From Halobacteriovorax sp. JY17 (GTDB lineage Bacteria; Bdellovibrionota; Bacteriovoracia; Bacteriovoracales; Bacteriovoracaceae), in assembly GCF_002753895.1 (NCBI RefSeq), contig NZ_NJER01000002.1:617990-681989 (forward strand): DNA of 64,000 nucleotides, read 5' to 3'. The translations under genes and the position numbers were made by a program. Of the stretch, positions 43,608 through 52,308 are shown piece by piece. The notes below the pieces were generated by a model. That model saw only the letters and a list, made by a program, of their open reading frames with translations. It was not told the origin of the DNA and made no database searches. Every line of letters starts with the position of its first letter. Within the stretch, counting starts at the first letter, position 1.

Positions 43608-45689
43608 ATGGAAGGAAGTTTCATCGACAAATTTAAAGCACTAAGTAAGAACTCTGATCTTGTGGTTGCTGTAGGTTTATTGCTCATCTTAAGTGTAATG
43701 ATCATACCTGTTCCTCCATTCTTATTGGACTTACTCTTTGCTCTGACTCTTTCTGGATCAGTCATTATTTTATTGATAGCAGTTTACTCTAAGAAAGCTT
43801 TAGACTTTTCAACTTTCCCTTCTGTTCTTCTTGTTTCAACTCTTTTTAGGCTTTCTCTAAACGTTGCCTCTACGAAGAATATTTTAATTCGTGGTGGAAC
43901 TGATGGAGTTAGCGCTGCGGGTGAGATTATTCGTGCCTTTGGAGAGTTCGTTGTAGGTGGTAATTACGTTGTTGGTATAATTGTTTTTATCATTTTAGTT
44001 ATTATTAACTTTATGGTTATTACTAAAGGTGCCGGTCGAGTTGCTGAAGTTGGTGCTAGGTTCACTTTAGATGCAATGCCTGGTAAGCAAATGGCCATTG
44101 ATGCAGACTTAAATGCAGGTCTTATTGACGACACTATGGCGAAGAAACGTAGACAAGAAGTTGCTGAAGAAGCTGACTTCTACGGTTCTATGGATGGTGC
44201 TTCGAAGTTCGTAAGAGGGGATGCTATTGCAGGTATCTTAATTACATTTATCAACGTTCTAGCGGGTATCGCTATCGGTGTAATGCAGTACGATCTAAGT
44301 GCTGGAGATGCGGCTCAAGTATTTACTCTTTTAACTGTAGGAGATGGTCTTATCTCTCAAATTCCAGCACTAATAATTTCAACTGCCGCTGGTATTATAA
44401 TCACGAGAAACACCTCAGAAGACTCATTAGGGTCACAGATTACTAATCAATTTAAAGTACACCCAAAGGCCTTATATATAGCAAGTGGGACCTTATTTAT
44501 CTTTGCAGTAATACCTGGACTTCCAAAAGCTCCTTTTATGATGATTGGCTCTCTTCTTGCCTTTGTTGGTTGGAGAATGGAGAAAGGAAATGCTGAAGAA
44601 AAAATTGTTGCGGCAGCTCAGGCAAGTAGTGAAGAGAAGAAAGCAACACCAGATAGCCTTGAAGATCTATTAAATCTAGAACTTGTAGAGCTAGAGGTAG
44701 GTTATGGACTTGTTAGTCTTGTAGATGCCGAGCAAAACGGTGATCTCCTTGAAAGAATTACACATATTAGAAAACAATTCGCTTTAGACTGGGGCGTAAT
44801 CATTCCTTCTGTTAGAATTAAAGACAACTTAGAGTTGAAGCCAGGAGGGTACAGCATTAAGGTCAAAGGAATTGAAGTGGCAAGTGGGGACTTAATGTCT
44901 GATCACTTTTTGGCCATGGATCCAGGTTCAGTTATTGAAAAAATTGATGGGGTTGAAACTGTTGAACCAGTTTTTGGACTACCAGCTGTTTGGATATCTG
45001 AAGATCAAAAAGACGATGCTCAATACAATGGTTATACAGTTGTAGATTTATCAACAGTTATGGCCACACATATTACAGAAGTTCTAAAAACTAATTTACA
45101 TGAATTATTTGGAAGACAAGAGCTTGTAAGAGTTGTTGATAATTTTAAAGAGCAATATCCAAAAATTGTTTCAGATCTAATTCCTGAAATTCTACCTCTT
45201 GGTACAGTTTTAAAAGTAATGCAAAATCTTTTAAGAGAAGGGGTTTCGGTAAGAGATCTTAGAACGATTCTCGAAACACTTGCAGAATATGGAACTACAG
45301 TTAAGGACTCAGACTCTTTGACGGAATTTTCTAGGCAGTCACTTTATAGAACGATTACAGAGTCAATTAGAGGTGATCAAGGTGATGTTCCTCTCTTTAC
45401 GCTCGATAGAAATATCGAAGAGAATATAGCGAATAATATAATTCAAACAGAGCAAGGGCAGCAGCTAAGTTTAGATCCAAAAATTACCCAGCATATTCTT
45501 GCTAGTCTTAATGAGAAAATTGAGGAAGCAACAAGTATGGGGGAGAAGATGGTTATCTTGTGTAGCCCTGTAATTAGAAATCATTTTAAAAAATTAACAG
45601 AGAAATTCATTCCGAACCTTGTTGTGATCAGTCACAATGAGTTGAGTTCGGAAGCTAATATTAGATCACTTGGTACGGTGAGGTTGTAG
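43608..45689 (+). CDS. flhA: Flagellar export protein FlhA
   Basis: The large export-gate component, 693 residues: eight transmembrane segments in the first 330 residues and a cytoplasmic domain that forms the nonameric ring receiving chaperone-substrate complexes. Visible family signatures are DFSTFPSVLLVSTLFRLSLN (about residues 66-85), DAMPGKQMAIDADLNAG (about 152-168), the FHIPEP-type DGLISQIPALIISTAAG and, in the ring domain, REGVSVRDLRTILETLAEYG. Ends with the base before the flhF start. Confidence 0.97.
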   Translation: MEGSFIDKFKALSKNSDLVVAVGLLLILSVMIIPVPPFLLDLLFALTLSGSVIILLIAVYSKKALDFSTFPSVLLVSTLFRLSLNVASTKNILIRGGTDGVSAAGEIIRAFGEFVVGGNYVVGIIVFIILVIINFMVITKGAGRVAEVGARFTLDAMPGKQMAIDADLNAGLIDDTMAKKRRQEVAEEADFYGSMDGASKFVRGDAIAGILITFINVLAGIAIGVMQYDLSAGDAAQVFTLLTVGDGLISQIPALIISTAAGIIITRNTSEDSLGSQITNQFKVHPKALYIASGTLFIFAVIPGLPKAPFMMIGSLLAFVGWRMEKGNAEEKIVAAAQASSEEKKATPDSLEDLLNLELVELEVGYGLVSLVDAEQNGDLLERITHIRKQFALDWGVIIPSVRIKDNLELKPGGYSIKVKGIEVASGDLMSDHFLAMDPGSVIEKIDGVETVEPVFGLPAVWISEDQKDDAQYNGYTVVDLSTVMATHITEVLKTNLHELFGRQELVRVVDNFKEQYPKIVSDLIPEILPLGTVLKVMQNLLREGVSVRDLRTILETLAEYGTTVKDSDSLTEFSRQSLYRTITESIRGDQGDVPLFTLDRNIEENIANNIIQTEQGQQLSLDPKITQHILASLNEKIEEATSMGEKMVILCSPVIRNHFKKLTEKFIPNLVVISHNELSSEANIRSLGTVRL

Positions 45690-47189
45690 ATGTATGTAAG
45701 AAAATTTGAAGCAGATTCTTTAGATGAGGCATTAAAAAACATTAAGTTGGAGCTAGGTCCAGATGCGATAATTCTAAAGACAATTACGAACAAGGGCCTT
45801 AAGGGTGCTTTCAAGAAAAAGAAAATTGAAATTACTGCTGCAATCAGTGAGAAGAATTATTCTAAGAAGGCGAAGGTTGATCATGTCTTAAATGATGGGC
45901 AAAAGAGTCAGTTCTATTCGAATAATTCAAGTTATGTTTCTAATATGATTGATGATTATGAAGAGAAATCTAGTCATAATTCAAGATCTACTGTCGCCAG
46001 TCCAAGTGGATCTGGAGGTTATGGAAAACTGGGTCTAAATAAGGCCGTAAATACAAATGAGAATCAAGTGGCAAAGAACTCTGACTTAGACGATTTCCTT
46101 TCAGACGCTGTTCATAAAGTTAAAGCTGTAACAAATAATATAGTTCACTCTACAAAGGTCAACATGGATAGCTTCTTCAATGACACTGAAGAAGATGAAG
46201 TAATGGAAGACGAAAACTTTGCGAATGAAATTCACATCGCATCTCAAGCTGAATACGACGTACCACGTAGTCAGGAAAGAAGAGAGAGAGTGGAGAATCG
46301 TAGTGAAGTTAACTATGACGATAGCGTTGTTGTTGAGCAGAGAAAGAAAATTGATGATCTTGAGAAGAAATTATTTGAACTTACAAAGAATGTTGAAAGA
46401 CTAGATAAGAAAGAGCCAAATGGTATTTATGAATTAAGGGCAACTCTTAGAAGCTTAGATATTTCTGAGAAATATATTCATAATCTTGTTAAGAAGGCTA
46501 TTTTTGAAATGAGTCGTGATGAGCTTGAAGACTCAGAAGTAGTCTTTGAATTTGCCCTTAGAGAAATGCTTGAATGTGTGAATACTGAAATGCCTCTTTT
46601 CTCATCTTCTAGTTCTGAAGAAGGTGTTGTCACAGTAGTTCTTTCTGAAACTTCTACAGGGCAAACCTCAATGGCCTATAAGATCGGCGCTTTAAAACCT
46701 GATTCGACTATTGTTAAGAGTAGTTTGAATGGTGCCCATAGCGAAGGGAAAGAATTTAGTAGAAAACTATTTGGTTTAAACGTTTCAGAAACAACAAATG
46801 TTGCAGAGACAGTTTCACTATGTAGAAAGACTATTGAAGAAGGTAAGTGCGCGTTTATTGATTATAAGAATAACTCTGATGATATCAATGAAACGAAGAA
46901 GTTTATCGATGGATTAAGAAGATCATTTGGCAAGGTGGAAGTATTGATCTCTCTTTCCGCAATTCATTCTGAAATCTATAATAGAAAAGTCGTTTCTAGA
47001 TATAAAGGTCTTGCAAACGGGATTGTTATTTCAAATTTAGACCTATGTTTAAACTTTGGAGCGCTATTTAACATTTCTGAGGAAAATACTGACCTTCCTT
47101 TAAAGTTTTATGGAACAGGTGAAGTGGTTCCTGACGATTTAGAAGCAGCGACAGCAGAGAGATTATTAGCAGGTATTTTTCAGTTCTAG
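45690..47189 (+). CDS. flhF: FlhF-type protein with degenerate GTPase motifs
   Basis: A 499-residue protein in the flhF slot between flhA and flhG. The N-terminal B-domain is clear (MYVRKFEADSLDEALKNIK, ELGPDAIILKT). A variable linker (about residues 60-230), an NG-type helical region (about 235-310) and the C-terminal block (PLKFYGTGEVVPDDLEAATA, about 470-489) match FlhF. The SRP-type GTPase motifs are degenerate. The P-loop position reads LSETSTGQTS (318-327) with Gln replacing the essential Lys of GKT. The DTAGR position reads DYKNN (391-395), and the TKLD position reads SNLD (448-451). FlhF normally uses GTP-driven dimerisation to place polar flagella; this one is probably a pseudo-GTPase. 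It starts right at the flhA stop (TAG ATG). Confidence 0.88.
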   Translation: MYVRKFEADSLDEALKNIKLELGPDAIILKTITNKGLKGAFKKKKIEITAAISEKNYSKKAKVDHVLNDGQKSQFYSNNSSYVSNMIDDYEEKSSHNSRSTVASPSGSGGYGKLGLNKAVNTNENQVAKNSDLDDFLSDAVHKVKAVTNNIVHSTKVNMDSFFNDTEEDEVMEDENFANEIHIASQAEYDVPRSQERRERVENRSEVNYDDSVVVEQRKKIDDLEKKLFELTKNVERLDKKEPNGIYELRATLRSLDISEKYIHNLVKKAIFEMSRDELEDSEVVFEFALREMLECVNTEMPLFSSSSSEEGVVTVVLSETSTGQTSMAYKIGALKPDSTIVKSSLNGAHSEGKEFSRKLFGLNVSETTNVAETVSLCRKTIEEGKCAFIDYKNNSDDINETKKFIDGLRRSFGKVEVLISLSAIHSEIYNRKVVSRYKGLANGIVISNLDLCLNFGALFNISEENTDLPLKFYGTGEVVPDDLEAATAERLLAGIFQF

Positions 47190-47242: not shown

Positions 47243-48118
47243 ATGTCGACAAAGAGCGCCGCTCAATGGCTTGTAGGCCATAACCGTTTTGAACAAAAGA
47301 AATCACCAGGTTCTATTAAAAAGAATTTTGGAAATGCAAAAACAATTTCTATCACTTCTGGAAAAGGGGGTGTTGGAAAGACGTCTATCTCATTAAAACT
47401 AGCAAAAATATTATCTGACAAAGGTTATAAAACTCTCGTTATCGACTGTGATTATAATCTTTCAAATACATCAGTAAAATTAGGCCTTCCTCTCACCGAT
47501 AATTTCTACTCCCTGCTTTCTGCGCAGAAGTCTTTTGATGACTGTCTTGTGATGCATGAAGGGTATTACTTATTATCAGGCTGCAATGGAAGTATGGACT
47601 TATTAAATGAGTCTCTTAGTATTGAAAAATTCATAATAGATATATTAGTGAGTCATGAAAGTGAATTTGACTATATTCTCCTTGATAGCCCTGCAGGGAT
47701 AGGTAAAGAGAATTTAACGTTGAATGCTTACAGCGATCATAGGTTTGTTGTTGTGACTCCTGATCGGTCATCTTTAACAGACTCGTACTCTTTGATGAAA
47801 ATCTTGAGTAATAAGTACGGCGTAAGTGAAAATCACCTAATAGTGAATAAAACTTCCAGTGATAAGCAATATAAGAGGATTGTTAAAACTCTTGGAGATA
47901 CTGTCGATAAATTCCTAAATACTAGGCTGAAAGTGCTTGGTGGAATTGATCGTAAAAATGTATCTGTAGATCAGTTTGATAAAGTCTTATTTGGTGGGGA
48001 AGATTTTGCCCTTCACCAGAATTTCATTAATATCGTTGAAATGTTCTCCGAAGAGAATGTTGGTACCTTGCTACCAATCTCTGAACATGGACAAGAGGTC
48101 CACCTAAACGTTTGCTAA
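47243..48118 (+). CDS. flhG: MinD-like ATPase FlhG (FleN/YlxH)
   Basis: ParA/MinD-family ATPase of 291 residues that limits flagellar number and interacts with FlhF and the C-ring. The deviant Walker A is intact (SGKGGVGKTS, about residues 37-46). The Walker A' region VIDCDYNLSNTSVKLGL and the switch motif LLDSPAGIG (about 148-156) are also present. The N-terminal DQAxxLR activator motif, which in other FlhG proteins stimulates FlhF GTPase, is not recognisable; instead the start reads SAAQWLVGHN. The C-terminus lacks an obvious amphipathic membrane helix. AGGAGA precedes the ATG. Confidence 0.92.
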   Translation: MSTKSAAQWLVGHNRFEQKKSPGSIKKNFGNAKTISITSGKGGVGKTSISLKLAKILSDKGYKTLVIDCDYNLSNTSVKLGLPLTDNFYSLLSAQKSFDDCLVMHEGYYLLSGCNGSMDLLNESLSIEKFIIDILVSHESEFDYILLDSPAGIGKENLTLNAYSDHRFVVVTPDRSSLTDSYSLMKILSNKYGVSENHLIVNKTSSDKQYKRIVKTLGDTVDKFLNTRLKVLGGIDRKNVSVDQFDKVLFGGEDFALHQNFINIVEMFSEENVGTLLPISEHGQEVHLNVC

Positions 48119-48129
48119 GGAGTGCATGA

Positions 48130-48912
48130 ATGTCTTCAATCTCTAAGAAGTTAAAAAATTTAAAAGACTATAGATCAACAGTTGATCCAAAAGTGAAAGA
48201 TGAAATTATCATCGAATACGCTCCACTTATTAAGTATATTGCTCAGAGAATTGCTTCAAGACTTCCTTCTAATGTTGAATTAGATGATTTAATTTCTTGT
48301 GGTGTAATTGGTTTGATGGATGCTATTGAGAAGTTCGATCCAAGTAGAGATAATAAATTTAAGACATATGCTGAATTTAGAATTAGAGGCTCAATTCTTG
48401 ATGAGTTAAGAGCGCAGGATTGGGTTCCAAGGTCTGTTAGAGAGAAAGCAAAGCTTGTTGAAAGAGCTTATGCTAAGATTGAAGCAGCTGAAGGAAGACC
48501 GGCTACAGACGAAGAGATGTGTGAAGAGCTTGGAGTTAACCAAGAGGAATTCTACGACTTGCTCAATAAGGCAAAGTCCGTTTCAGTTCTAAATATTGAT
48601 GATTCTGCATCTTTTAATAAAGGTGATAAAAGACTCATCGCTGGTATTGAAGATAATAGAAATAGTAATCCTTTTAATGCTGTTGCAAATAAAGGGTCTA
48701 GAGATAAGATTAAAGAGGGGATTGCTCAACTTCCTGAGAAGCAGAGACTTGTTCTATCTTTATATTATTATGAAGATTTAAACCTAAAGGAAATTGGACA
48801 AGTTTTAAATGTAACTGAATCCAGAGTTTCTCAACTTCATACACAAGCAATTATGAAGCTAAAAGTTAAACTAAAGACAACTTTCGACTCACCTGAGGAT
48901 ATGGCGAGCTAG
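48130..48912 (+). CDS. fliA: Flagellar sigma factor FliA (sigma-28)
   Basis: A 260-residue RNA polymerase sigma factor. Region 2 is EYAPLIKYIAQRIASRLP...DDLISCGVIGLMDAIEKFDP with the FKTYAEFRIRGSILDELRAQDWVPRSVREKA signature of sigma-28 (shown in parts). Region 3 is AEGRPATDEEMCEELGV, and region 4 is LPEKQRLVLSLYYYEDLNLK with ESRVSQLHTQAI. It should direct late flagellar genes (flagellin, motor, chemotaxis). It follows flhG by 11 bases. Confidence 0.96.
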   Translation: MSSISKKLKNLKDYRSTVDPKVKDEIIIEYAPLIKYIAQRIASRLPSNVELDDLISCGVIGLMDAIEKFDPSRDNKFKTYAEFRIRGSILDELRAQDWVPRSVREKAKLVERAYAKIEAAEGRPATDEEMCEELGVNQEEFYDLLNKAKSVSVLNIDDSASFNKGDKRLIAGIEDNRNSNPFNAVANKGSRDKIKEGIAQLPEKQRLVLSLYYYEDLNLKEIGQVLNVTESRVSQLHTQAIMKLKVKLKTTFDSPEDMAS

Positions 48913-48931: not shown

Positions 48932-49882
48932 ATGGCGAATAATGTAACTAAAGAATTTGAACAGGGGATGCAAACGCTTGAAGATATTCAGGCCCTCTCA
49001 GACTTTAGTCTTTCGCCATTAGTAGATAGAGCGGCCTTTCATTTTTCTGAAATTCATCGGAAGGCCGAGTTTTCATTTGAGAACTTAAATTCATTCAGCA
49101 AAATTCAAAGTTTCTTAGAAAAAACAATCGATAATTTACTTACTCACTATATTTTGAGAGATGCAGTCACACATCAAGTACTTCTTCAAAAAAAGTATGA
49201 TGATATGTCGCTTGAAAGTTGGAATAAATTATTGGAAGTTCTTCCAACCAGTTTGCAGATATTAAGTATTTTTAAATTTGTTGGTACGCAGAATATTCAA
49301 GTTTCTAAAGAGGGAATCAACGTTCGCGGTTTAATTAAAACTGATGAATCAATTACAAGGTTTAGGGAAGTTGTTTATAGAGCTTCTCGTAAATTACTTG
49401 AGCATAAAACTATACTTACTTATAAAATTGAAGAACTAGAAGACGAGAGAATCTGTTGGCTAGAGCTAAGTGTTGACATGGAACATAGTGAGAAGTTGAG
49501 CTATAATGTCGACTTTTTGGAAACACTAGGAATGAAGCTAGGTTTTTCAAGTATTTTTAGTAAGTATAGAATAAGTAAGGAAGATGCTTTTGAACTTCCA
49601 CGGCATTTAATAATTGAGATAACATCTAATTTAGAAATTAGAAAATATTATAGAGTACCTGATCACTACACTAGGGATTTAGATAGTAAAGAAATGTTGC
49701 ACTTTTCCTTTTTATTTCGTCCCGTTTCGATCATAATACCTAAGACAGGCTTTCTAGAGAGAAGGCCTACCAACGCAAATTTTGAAGACACAGGAAGTGG
49801 CTTAGGACAACAGGAAGTTAAAAATCAGATAAATTCTAATTATAGATATATCGATTTCTTCTCCCTGATAAATCAATCTTAG
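48932..49882 (+). CDS. Unknown protein of the flagellar operon
   Basis: A 316-residue soluble protein with no signal peptide or transmembrane segment. The first 120 residues are helical. Residues about 125-240 alternate strands and helices. It follows fliA by 19 bases (TTGGAG before the ATG) and is therefore probably co-transcribed with the flagellar genes. I do not recognise a family. Its position could mean a role in flagellar placement or regulation. Confidence 0.75.
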   Translation: MANNVTKEFEQGMQTLEDIQALSDFSLSPLVDRAAFHFSEIHRKAEFSFENLNSFSKIQSFLEKTIDNLLTHYILRDAVTHQVLLQKKYDDMSLESWNKLLEVLPTSLQILSIFKFVGTQNIQVSKEGINVRGLIKTDESITRFREVVYRASRKLLEHKTILTYKIEELEDERICWLELSVDMEHSEKLSYNVDFLETLGMKLGFSSIFSKYRISKEDAFELPRHLIIEITSNLEIRKYYRVPDHYTRDLDSKEMLHFSFLFRPVSIIIPKTGFLERRPTNANFEDTGSGLGQQEVKNQINSNYRYIDFFSLINQS

Positions 49883-49926: not shown

Positions 49927-52308
49927 ATGAATGTCAGATTCGGCAGATCTCTACAAACGTATTACGCAGTAACTTTTTTCGCTCTAATTTCTATTGTGGG
50001 TTATGGGATATTTTATTTTTGGAATTATGGTCCAGTAAATATCAATAACGTTTCAACAGTTTTTGAAGCAACTCTTCAATTAGACGAGTTTAAGAAGAGA
50101 GATGATATTAAATCTATTTGGTCTCAAGTAGATAATGATAGAGTCAGAGACGCTGTAACATCTATGGACGAAGTTCAGTCTTATACAAAGAGGCTAAATT
50201 CAATTTCTTCAATCGACAGTTACGATAAGTTAGAAACTTCTCTGCAAAAATCTAAAAAGTCTTTAAATGCTCTAATTTCATTTTCGGAAGTTTCGACAAT
50301 TGTAAATGTTCTCCACAATAAGGTCTCAAACTTTGAAGCCTTTGTTGAAGCGAATAGTTGGAGAACTCTGACAAGAGTTTCTAAGAGAATTAACGCAAAA
50401 ATCAAACCGAGTAGAACCAGAGGCCCGGGTTACTATACTTATTCTAAGCTTCATAGGCTTTGGTCTAGTGTTCAGGATGATGTGATTCTAATGGAAAGAG
50501 TTACAGAGGGATCTGTTCTTTCGAGAGAAGATAAGAACTTAATTCTCACTAAAACAAAGACCTTGAAAACTGAAATTACGATGTTAGAAAATTACTTGAA
50601 AGAGTTTAAGAATTTTAGAACAGACTTTGCTGAGACTGAAGTAAATTTTAAATTATGGCTTAAAAATATAGAACCAGAAATAAGTTTAAAGAAAATTCAA
50701 TTTGAAAGAAATTCTCAGAATATGCTCTTTTCCTTAATTGGACTTGTTGTTGTTATGTTTGCAATGGGGCTTATTGGTTTCTTTATGTATAAGAAGAGTG
50801 AGAGATCTAATAAAGATGAAGTTGAAAAAATTGTTATCCATGCAATTAAAGAGGGTGTTCTCCCTACTGAAACTAGCTTTGATCAATCACTTTCAATGAA
50901 AACGAGAGAAGAATTTGATAAGTATAGAGAATATATTCATAAGAGAATGAGTTTTGGATCTATCTTTCAAGATGCGATGCCTTTTTCATCTCTGCTTCTT
51001 GACTCAAACTTAAATCTTGTCTGGGCCAATGGTTTATTCTATGAGCATTGGGGATTGTCTGAATATAAGAACTCTGATGATAATGTTACATGGGACTTTT
51101 TACAGAGATTTACTAATCTAGGTGAAAACGATCCTGTGATTACGGCTGTAAAAGATGATGTTGCAGGAATTTATAATATTCAAGTAAAAACAAAACAAGA
51201 TGAAGAGTCTCTTCCTTTTGAAATGTATGTCTCTCCTGTTGAGTATGCCAATCAAAGAAGAATTATGATTTCATTCTATCCTTTGAGATCTATTGAGGAA
51301 ACTTTATCAAATCAATCGAAGTCTTTGGTTGGTCCTGTTGCAAGAACTTTGGAAGCGCTTACTTCTGGAACATTTAATGGGGAATTTAAAGAGAGAACTG
51401 AAAAAGATTTTGATATTGCAGGAATCACTGAGGTTTGGAGTAAGTTTCAGAAGTATCATGATTTTGTAACAGGTCAAAAGAATGGACTATTGCAAGAGAT
51501 TGAAAGACTTGAAAATGATTTATTTGATCAATACAAATTAGTTAACGATATTCAAACGACTCTTAATGAAAATACTGAAATTCAAAAAGTTGCGATTTCA
51601 AAATTTAAAGATACGAAATCTAGTATTATAGGGATCGTCGAACTTAGAAATGAAATGGAAACTCTCTATCAAAATACTGTCGCAACTTCAAAAGGGTTGT
51701 TTCAAGATGAGGTAACACTTCTTTCTCAGTCTCAAAAAATTGCTGAGACTCTCGTTGATCAGAATAAAGCATTAGAGAACGTAGATAAGGTTAGAAAAGA
51801 ATATAAATCCCTAAAGAGTAATGTTGATCAATTCAGAGGTCGTATGATGCAACTTCTAGATCAATCTCTAATTTTTCAAAAGACTGATTCTGCCAGTTAC
51901 AAAGTAGAGCAGAGTTTATCAAAGATAAAGAATGAAGTTAAGGCCTTTGAAAAAGTACTTACCGACTTCTCTAAGGTTTCAACAGCATTAGATGTTAACC
52001 TTTCAAAAGTTCAGCTTATCATGCAACAATCTGAGATTCCAAACTTCTCTCAACTTCAATTTAGAATGGAAGAGGCAAGGGACTTGATTGAGTCAGATAT
52101 GTTCAATGTGAGTAGACTTTCAAGAACAGGACAGACAAAAGATGATGAAATGATTTCTTCAATGAAAGGATTATTTCAAGCATTTAAAGAAGGTTTCTTA
52201 AAATTAACTGAGTCTATCGAGTTATCAACAACAAATGCAGCTTTAGAAGTAGATGTTGAACTAGAGGAAGATCTTCCCGCTCCGTATAAGCCTGAAGCAT
52301 CAGCATAG
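49927..52308 (+). CDS. Membrane-bound PAS/coiled-coil sensor-like protein
   Basis: A 793-residue protein. Transmembrane helix 1 (about 13-33) and helix 2 (about 264-287) enclose a helical periplasmic sensor region. Beyond the membrane, about residues 345-460 form a PAS-like domain (SSLLLDSNLNLVWANGLFYEHWG is its start, split as SSLLLDSNLNLVWAN). A long coiled coil follows (about 490-745). The layout is like a chemoreceptor, but I do not see the conserved hairpin tip of methyl-accepting proteins, nor a kinase or cyclase domain. It lies 44 bases after the unknown protein of the flagellar operon. Its placement suggests a role in motility sensing or as a polar scaffold. Confidence 0.78.
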   Translation: MNVRFGRSLQTYYAVTFFALISIVGYGIFYFWNYGPVNINNVSTVFEATLQLDEFKKRDDIKSIWSQVDNDRVRDAVTSMDEVQSYTKRLNSISSIDSYDKLETSLQKSKKSLNALISFSEVSTIVNVLHNKVSNFEAFVEANSWRTLTRVSKRINAKIKPSRTRGPGYYTYSKLHRLWSSVQDDVILMERVTEGSVLSREDKNLILTKTKTLKTEITMLENYLKEFKNFRTDFAETEVNFKLWLKNIEPEISLKKIQFERNSQNMLFSLIGLVVVMFAMGLIGFFMYKKSERSNKDEVEKIVIHAIKEGVLPTETSFDQSLSMKTREEFDKYREYIHKRMSFGSIFQDAMPFSSLLLDSNLNLVWANGLFYEHWGLSEYKNSDDNVTWDFLQRFTNLGENDPVITAVKDDVAGIYNIQVKTKQDEESLPFEMYVSPVEYANQRRIMISFYPLRSIEETLSNQSKSLVGPVARTLEALTSGTFNGEFKERTEKDFDIAGITEVWSKFQKYHDFVTGQKNGLLQEIERLENDLFDQYKLVNDIQTTLNENTEIQKVAISKFKDTKSSIIGIVELRNEMETLYQNTVATSKGLFQDEVTLLSQSQKIAETLVDQNKALENVDKVRKEYKSLKSNVDQFRGRMMQLLDQSLIFQKTDSASYKVEQSLSKIKNEVKAFEKVLTDFSKVSTALDVNLSKVQLIMQQSEIPNFSQLQFRMEEARDLIESDMFNVSRLSRTGQTKDDEMISSMKGLFQAFKEGFLKLTESIELSTTNAALEVDVELEEDLPAPYKPEASA

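Follow-up and report, generated by a model that had tools for sequence, protein, structure and literature searches.

A probable pseudo-GTPase FlhF in an order of Bdellovibrionota, with a matched change in its partner FlhG

According to the literature on FlhF, GTP binding by this protein, if not GTP hydrolysis, is needed for the placement of a polar flagellum (PMC12826062, PMC6092412). A 64,000-nucleotide stretch of the genome of Halobacteriovorax sp. JY17 (contig NZ_NJER01000002.1; the whole stretch is called the window below) carries an flhF-type gene whose nucleotide motifs are extensively altered, and it raises the question of whether FlhF can serve without its GTP switch and, if so, where control of the protein then lies.

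The flhF locus and the fold of its product

The gene is an open frame of 499 codons running from ATG to TAG (45690..47189, + strand), and we describe its product as an FlhF-derived pseudo-GTPase. It lies directly downstream of flhA, which encodes the export gate (43608..45689, +; TIGR01398, 4.6e-273 in its own genome), and is followed by flhG, which encodes a MinD-type ATPase (47243..48118, +; minD_bact, 3.2e-25, below the cut-off of that model), and then by a gene for a fliA-type sigma-28 factor (48130..48912, +). The last of these was read as an ORF and named from its sequence and from the gene order in Pseudomonas, flhA-flhF-fleN-fliA (PMC6424431). The order in the window is flhA-flhF-flhG-fliA, and flhA and flhG adjoin flhF in most loci of the taxonomic order to which JY17 belongs. 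Two more ORFs come after fliA, one of 316 amino acids (48932-49882) whose family is unknown and was not tested, and one of 793 amino acids (49927-52308) that resembles a membrane protein with coiled coils, its family likewise not tested.

The NCBIfam model for FlhF, TIGR03499, matches residues 1-305 (3.1e-18, 66.8 bits). As this score is below the equivalog cut-off of 174.15 bits, we file the protein as FlhF-derived and keep it out of the FlhF GTPase equivalog. The match begins at residue 1, and residues 1-65 (45690..45884) form the start of the N-terminal B-domain; the region that they match is the FliG-interacting domain (FID), which in S. putrefaciens comprises the first 44 residues (PMC11236974). 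Next come a fast-evolving linker (residues 66-204; 45885..46301), which has the highest dN/dS in the protein, and the NG domain (residues 205-499; 46302..47186), to which AlphaFold2 and VIA assign an SRP-GTPase fold without the canonical active site. Pfam SRP54 matches residues 427-497 only (2.1e-5). A search of solved structures with the single sequence gave only matches with E values of about 0.2-0.3, so that a profile was needed; with a profile built from the order, the first match was B. subtilis FlhF (2px0; 4.5e-13).

The AlphaFold2 model of the NG domain (pLDDT 86.6, pTM 0.78) superimposes on FlhF, FtsY and Ffh with Z scores of 20-24. Its best structural match (Foldseek/VIA) is GDP-bound FlhF (8r9r; Z 23.9, 2.8 Å over 242 residues), and the FlhF-GMPPNP structure (2px0) follows with a VIA Z of 23.3, tied with FtsY and with Ffh close behind. 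Judged from this predicted model, the expectation that the NG fold of the SRP GTPases is retained is met. When the JY17 genome itself was searched with the FlhF profile, the top three proteins were FtsY, Ffh and the product of the window gene, and the remainder were weak P-loop matches. FtsY and Ffh have intact motifs. Apart from them and the product of the window gene, no clear SRP-type NG protein was found, and this search revealed no second candidate for FlhF. The synteny, the FlhF N-terminus, the NG fold with its match to FlhF and the lack of another FlhF in the genome confirm that this ORF (45690-47189) is the orthologue of FlhF, as a first-pass annotation had proposed; its remark that the frame is open throughout also holds.

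Nucleotide motifs inside and outside the order

By the order we mean the GTDB order of the window genome, which has a single family code (f1) and 48 genera of Bacteriovoracaceae-like predators. Motifs were counted in 80 distinct FlhF sequences from this order and in 60 distinct FlhF sequences from 20 other families of the phylum; the sampling was confined to Bdellovibrionota, with no survey of other phyla.

In the alignment, the former P-loop (G1) of JY17 FlhF reads SETSTGQTS (residues 319-327; 46644..46670) in place of the canonical GPTGVGKTT. The codon for Gln325 (46662..46664) replaces that of the phosphate-binding Lys, and the position is Gln in 80/80 sequences of the order and Lys in 60/60 outside it. 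The first Gly of the P-loop has become Ser in 78 of the 80 and is Gly in all 60 others, Gly324 is kept in 79/80, and residue 326 is Ser or Thr in 76/80. Only six columns of a 69-row alignment of the NG domain are invariant, Gln325 among them, and the Gln form is also carried by a Halobacteriovorax MAG and by Bacteriovorax sp. DB6_IX. At G2 (46716..46745), where FlhF has DTxK/R, the aligned rows from outside the order show DTxK or DNxK, and there is no such motif inside it. The former G3 is DYKNN (46860..46874; canonical DTAGR or DTTGR), with the Thr, Gly and Arg lost and Asp391 kept (79/80 in the order); position 394, the Gly of G3, is Gly in 50/60 sequences outside and Asn, Cys, Leu or Val inside. 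The former G4 is SNLD (47031..47042; canonical S/TKLD), in which Asp451 is kept (80/80) and Lys449 is lost, this position being Lys in 2/80 and usually His or Asn. A G5-like GTGE (47112..47123) is retained, and its Gly477 is present throughout the order (80/80).

JY17 FlhF therefore passes our tests for functional GTPase motifs at G5 and fails them at G1, G2, G3 and G4. Published assignments (PMC10910532) give G1 the phosphate oxyanion hole, G2 the γ-phosphate, Mg and the arginine finger, G3 the Mg and water, the G4 Asp the guanine, and G5 the base and ribose; set against these roles, the residues retained and lost imply that the site has lost the half that serves phosphate and catalysis and has kept part of the half that serves the base.

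The first-pass annotation had read STGQTS, DYKNN and SNLD at G1, G3 and G4, and these readings are correct as described. It had argued from the open frame that a sequencing frameshift was not the cause, and assembly or frameshift error is ruled out by the recurrence of the same motifs in 80 distinct relatives. Intact G motifs elsewhere in the protein would have overturned its interpretation; we searched JY17 FlhF for them and found none. The alignment across Bdellovibrionota that it suggested indicates that loss of the P-loop is universal in this one order and, among the families sampled, confined to it, and on these aligned sequences the original observation is confirmed as neither chance nor a local error.

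Among the other families of the phylum, f16, f18 and f20-f23 have a canonical FlhF (GxTGVGKTT, DTxG and T/SKxD), and the Bdellovibrionaceae-type families keep G1 and G2, often with an altered G3 and with TSLD, TGLD or THLD at G4. Because loss of the G4 Lys is thus shared with several families that have kept the P-loop, SNLD on its own is weak evidence. In a tree of FlhA the order forms one clade (SH-aLRT 100, stem branch 0.57), so that one change from Lys to Gln suffices for the sampled rows. The order lies nearer to the canonical group than to the Bdellovibrionaceae-type group in this tree, the deeper part of which is not firmly resolved, and from that placement the G4 changes of the two groups may be independent. 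Families f12 and f13 (L148-L153) show that FlhF has also been reduced in another way in this phylum: the protein is shortened to 350-380 amino acids with an intact P-loop and an altered G3, and FlhG is without its N-terminal extension.

Substitution rates were estimated between JY17 and four congeners, and as dS was high or saturated in several pairs, the values are rough. The dN/dS ratio is about 0.03-0.11 for the G domain, 0.02-0.19 for the N domain, 0.13-0.26 for the linker and 0.002-0.018 for residues 1-65. Five residues, His426, Glu428, Tyr430, Asn431 and Cys453, are conserved in the order only.

A TIGR03499 score so far under the FlhF cut-off would also suit two other accounts of the gene. 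That it encodes some other SRP-like paralogue and that a normal FlhF is encoded at another locus is scarcely credible when the genome offers no candidate besides FtsY, Ffh and the window gene, the flhA-flhF-flhG-fliA synteny is in place and the best structural match is an FlhF. We give no more credence to neutral decay of an unneeded domain, or to a pseudogene, since the frame is open in nearly all listed loci, from more than 40 genera, the G domain has a low dN/dS, Gln325 does not vary and new clade-specific residues have become conserved; this conservation already refutes it. By sequence comparison, the pseudo-FlhF is under strong purifying selection and is not decaying.

A new N-terminal helix in FlhG

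In nearly all of the order loci read, flhG lies downstream of flhF on the same strand. The deviant Walker A motif of JY17 FlhG, SGKGGVGKT (47357..47383, +), is intact, and GKGGVGK is invariant in a 51-row alignment (A2) of FlhG. One member of the order (L082, genome G103) has at the FlhG position an ORF with GSPGSGKT instead of KGGVGKT.

Hydrolysis by FlhF is stimulated by FlhG, which uses for this the Gln in its N-terminal DQAxxLR motif (PMC12826062). Were there no FlhF hydrolysis to stimulate, this motif would be free to go, and we used this expectation as an independent test. DQAxxLR is present in 0/80 FlhG sequences of the order and in 8/45 outside it, and all eight of these adjoin an FlhF with an intact P-loop and the G4 Lys. 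The segment in JY17 that replaces the enhancer helix consists of residues 4-13, KSAAQWLVGH (47252..47281, +). A Trp-Leu motif is found here in 77/80 FlhG of the order and in none of the 45 outside, about 20-50 residues ahead of Walker A and typically as S-[E/D]-W-L-[L/V]-S-[Q/F]-N; the three exceptions include the partners of two of the most divergent FlhF (L072, L075). The alignments thus show the DQAxxLR enhancer helix to have been replaced by a putative new Trp-Leu helix. AlphaFold2 makes residues 4-13 helical on a disordered tether, at low pLDDT; a prediction of this kind is what would be expected of a docking segment, and it is no proof of one.

Loss of the enhancer helix proves nothing by itself, because pseudomonad FlhG/FleN is without DQAxxLR although the FlhF there is an active GTPase (PMC12713375), and several sampled families of the phylum have an FlhG without the motif yet an FlhF whose P-loop is intact.

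GTP independence and polar placement

The loss of motifs throughout the order, the strict conservation of Gln325 and the accompanying loss of the stimulating motif from FlhG lead us to conclude, in the absence of any biochemistry, that FlhF of this order is very probably hydrolysis-dead, and in this sense the pseudo-GTPase inferred by the first-pass annotation is strongly supported. That FlhF has been lost as a GTP switch we consider likely, again without biochemistry, and that it binds no nucleotide under physiological conditions we favour only slightly. The phrase "nucleotide-independent FlhF" goes further; it is plausible but has not been demonstrated, the invariant guanine-sensing Asp and Gly of G5 leaving room for weak nucleotide binding or for binding without hydrolysis.

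Our explanation of the whole, to which we assign a probability of about 0.7 and which no biochemistry yet supports, is that FlhF is a conserved pseudo-GTPase of the order, a constitutive adaptor whose control has moved to FlhG. Unable to hydrolyse GTP, it would not cycle between a GTP-bound dimer and a GDP monomer. Through its N-terminal FID it would hold FliG and, by way of FliG, FliF, and the NG fold would dock on a polar site through protein contacts. Comparable contacts are known in Shewanella (PMC11236974), in which FliG is bound by the first 44 residues of FlhF, and HubP by the NG domain with no nucleotide required; FlhF of the order keeps both parts, the N-terminal (FID) region and the NG domain. 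On/off control would probably have passed to FlhG. The ATPase site of FlhG is intact, and its new N-terminal helix would be the segment most likely to dock on the altered face of FlhF, although control through this helix remains tentative, at somewhat under an even chance. Counting against the explanation, the genome gave no match to FipA (DUF2802) and none to the FimV core, the latter in a search without a working positive control.

Residual binding of a guanine nucleotide is the main rival to this explanation and is not excluded by the sequences. FlhF would then be hydrolysis-dead but still nucleotide-regulated: Gln325, Asp391, Asp451 and Gly477 would hold a nucleotide such as GDP, GTP or an alarmone, which would serve the structure as a cofactor or act as a slow sensor. 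The complete or nearly complete conservation of these four residues and of Gly324, and the Ser or Thr that usually follows Gln325, could be so explained; SRP GTPases are known from PDB titles to bind ppGpp and pppGpp, and Vibrio work cited in PMC6092412 finds binding, not hydrolysis, to be essential. Yet the main contacts to phosphate and Mg are gone (the P-loop Lys, the first P-loop Gly and G2), as is the G4 Lys, and Asp451 and Gly477 may have structural roles as well, so that we think this reading less likely than not. An active GTPase with an alternative catalytic set, in which, for example, another Lys reaches the phosphates, is far less probable: Lys331, which lies on the helix that follows the P-loop, does not vary in the order, but it is equally conserved outside (59/60), alongside the Lys at position 325, and is therefore not a replacement; in addition, FlhF of this clade has no G2, and its FlhG has lost the stimulating motif.

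Pseudo-GTPases as a class keep the GTPase fold as a binding module after losing the catalytic motifs. The pseudoGTPase domains of p190RhoGAP (PMC9840978) differ from the present case in being Ras-like and eukaryotic, and the literature searched yielded neither a pseudo-GTPase from the SRP branch (Ffh, FtsY, FlhF) nor any degenerate SRP GTPase. With FlhF of B. subtilis and S. putrefaciens (2px0, 2px3, 3syn, 8r9r) the order protein shares the N-terminal region, the NG fold, its position by flhA and flhG, G5 and the Asp residues of G3 and G4, but it is without the G1 Lys, G2, the G3 Gly and the G4 Lys, its partner FlhG is without DQAxxLR, and identity is only 15-18% over the aligned structure. 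Bdellovibrionaceae FlhF resembles it in the frequent loss of the G4 Lys, the altered G3 and an FlhG without DQAxxLR, and differs in keeping a GxxxSGKT P-loop and the G2 DTxK and in an FlhG without the Trp-Leu helix. P. aeruginosa likewise has a single polar flagellum and an FlhG/FleN without DQAxxLR (PMC12713375), but its FlhF has measured GTPase activity and a GTP-dependent contact with FliG.

An FlhF homologue was found in 119 of 129 genomes of the order and FlhA in 117, and apart from one genus (g27) and assembly gaps the two track each other. H. marinus BE01 and Halobacteriovorax isolates bear a single polar flagellum (PMC5760749, PMC12724312), so the pseudo-FlhF goes with normal polar placement, with the proviso that flhF was read in relatives of the same group and not in those isolates; polar placement apparently proceeds without GTP hydrolysis by FlhF. 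An order that has kept FlhF without its P-loop Lys, G2, G3 Gly and G4 Lys, and whose cells bear a single polar flagellum in those cases in which they have been observed, offers a natural test of the GTP-binding model, including the Vibrio view (PMC6092412) that GTP binding is essential and hydrolysis is not. It allows the work of FlhF as a scaffold to be told apart from its work as a switch, and the accompanying change in FlhG hints at the place to which the switch may have moved; together these suggest that polar flagella can be built without an FlhF GTP switch.

In genus g27 (G065, G067 and G068; 94-99% complete), no orthologue of FlhA, flagellin, FliG or FlhG was found. These genomes carry a pseudo-FlhF with a GQ P-loop (L073 1944-3071 in G068, L076 1941-2981 in G065 and L207 3109-4236 in G067); its gene immediately precedes one for a fliA-type sigma factor and follows an ORF of ~170 amino acids of unknown family. 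It may represent use of the scaffold without a flagellum, or a relic. The widest proposal, which we think less likely than not but do not rule out, is that the whole order places its flagella with a GTP-independent FlhF scaffold, that the switch resides wholly in the ATPase FlhG via the new Trp-Leu docking helix, and that in this one genus the scaffold was kept after the flagellum was lost and has some other role at the pole.

Some further observations concern flagellar relatives in these genomes. At L204 3032-4324 (-) and 4340-5278 (-), G065 has a truncated FliF-like protein of 430 amino acids (YscJ_FliF, 1.4e-7) beside sigma-54 activators, possibly a relic or a repurposed MS-ring module. A 640-amino-acid protein encoded after fliA in g27 (L207 210-2132, -) has a look similar to that of the 793-residue ORF in the window (family not tested). 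Besides FliG, the JY17 genome encodes short proteins of ~145 amino acids that match only the C-terminal domain of FliG (G000:C1:1207316-1207720 and G000:C2:231030-231404; L199, L203), and proteins of this kind are also present in G071 and G074.
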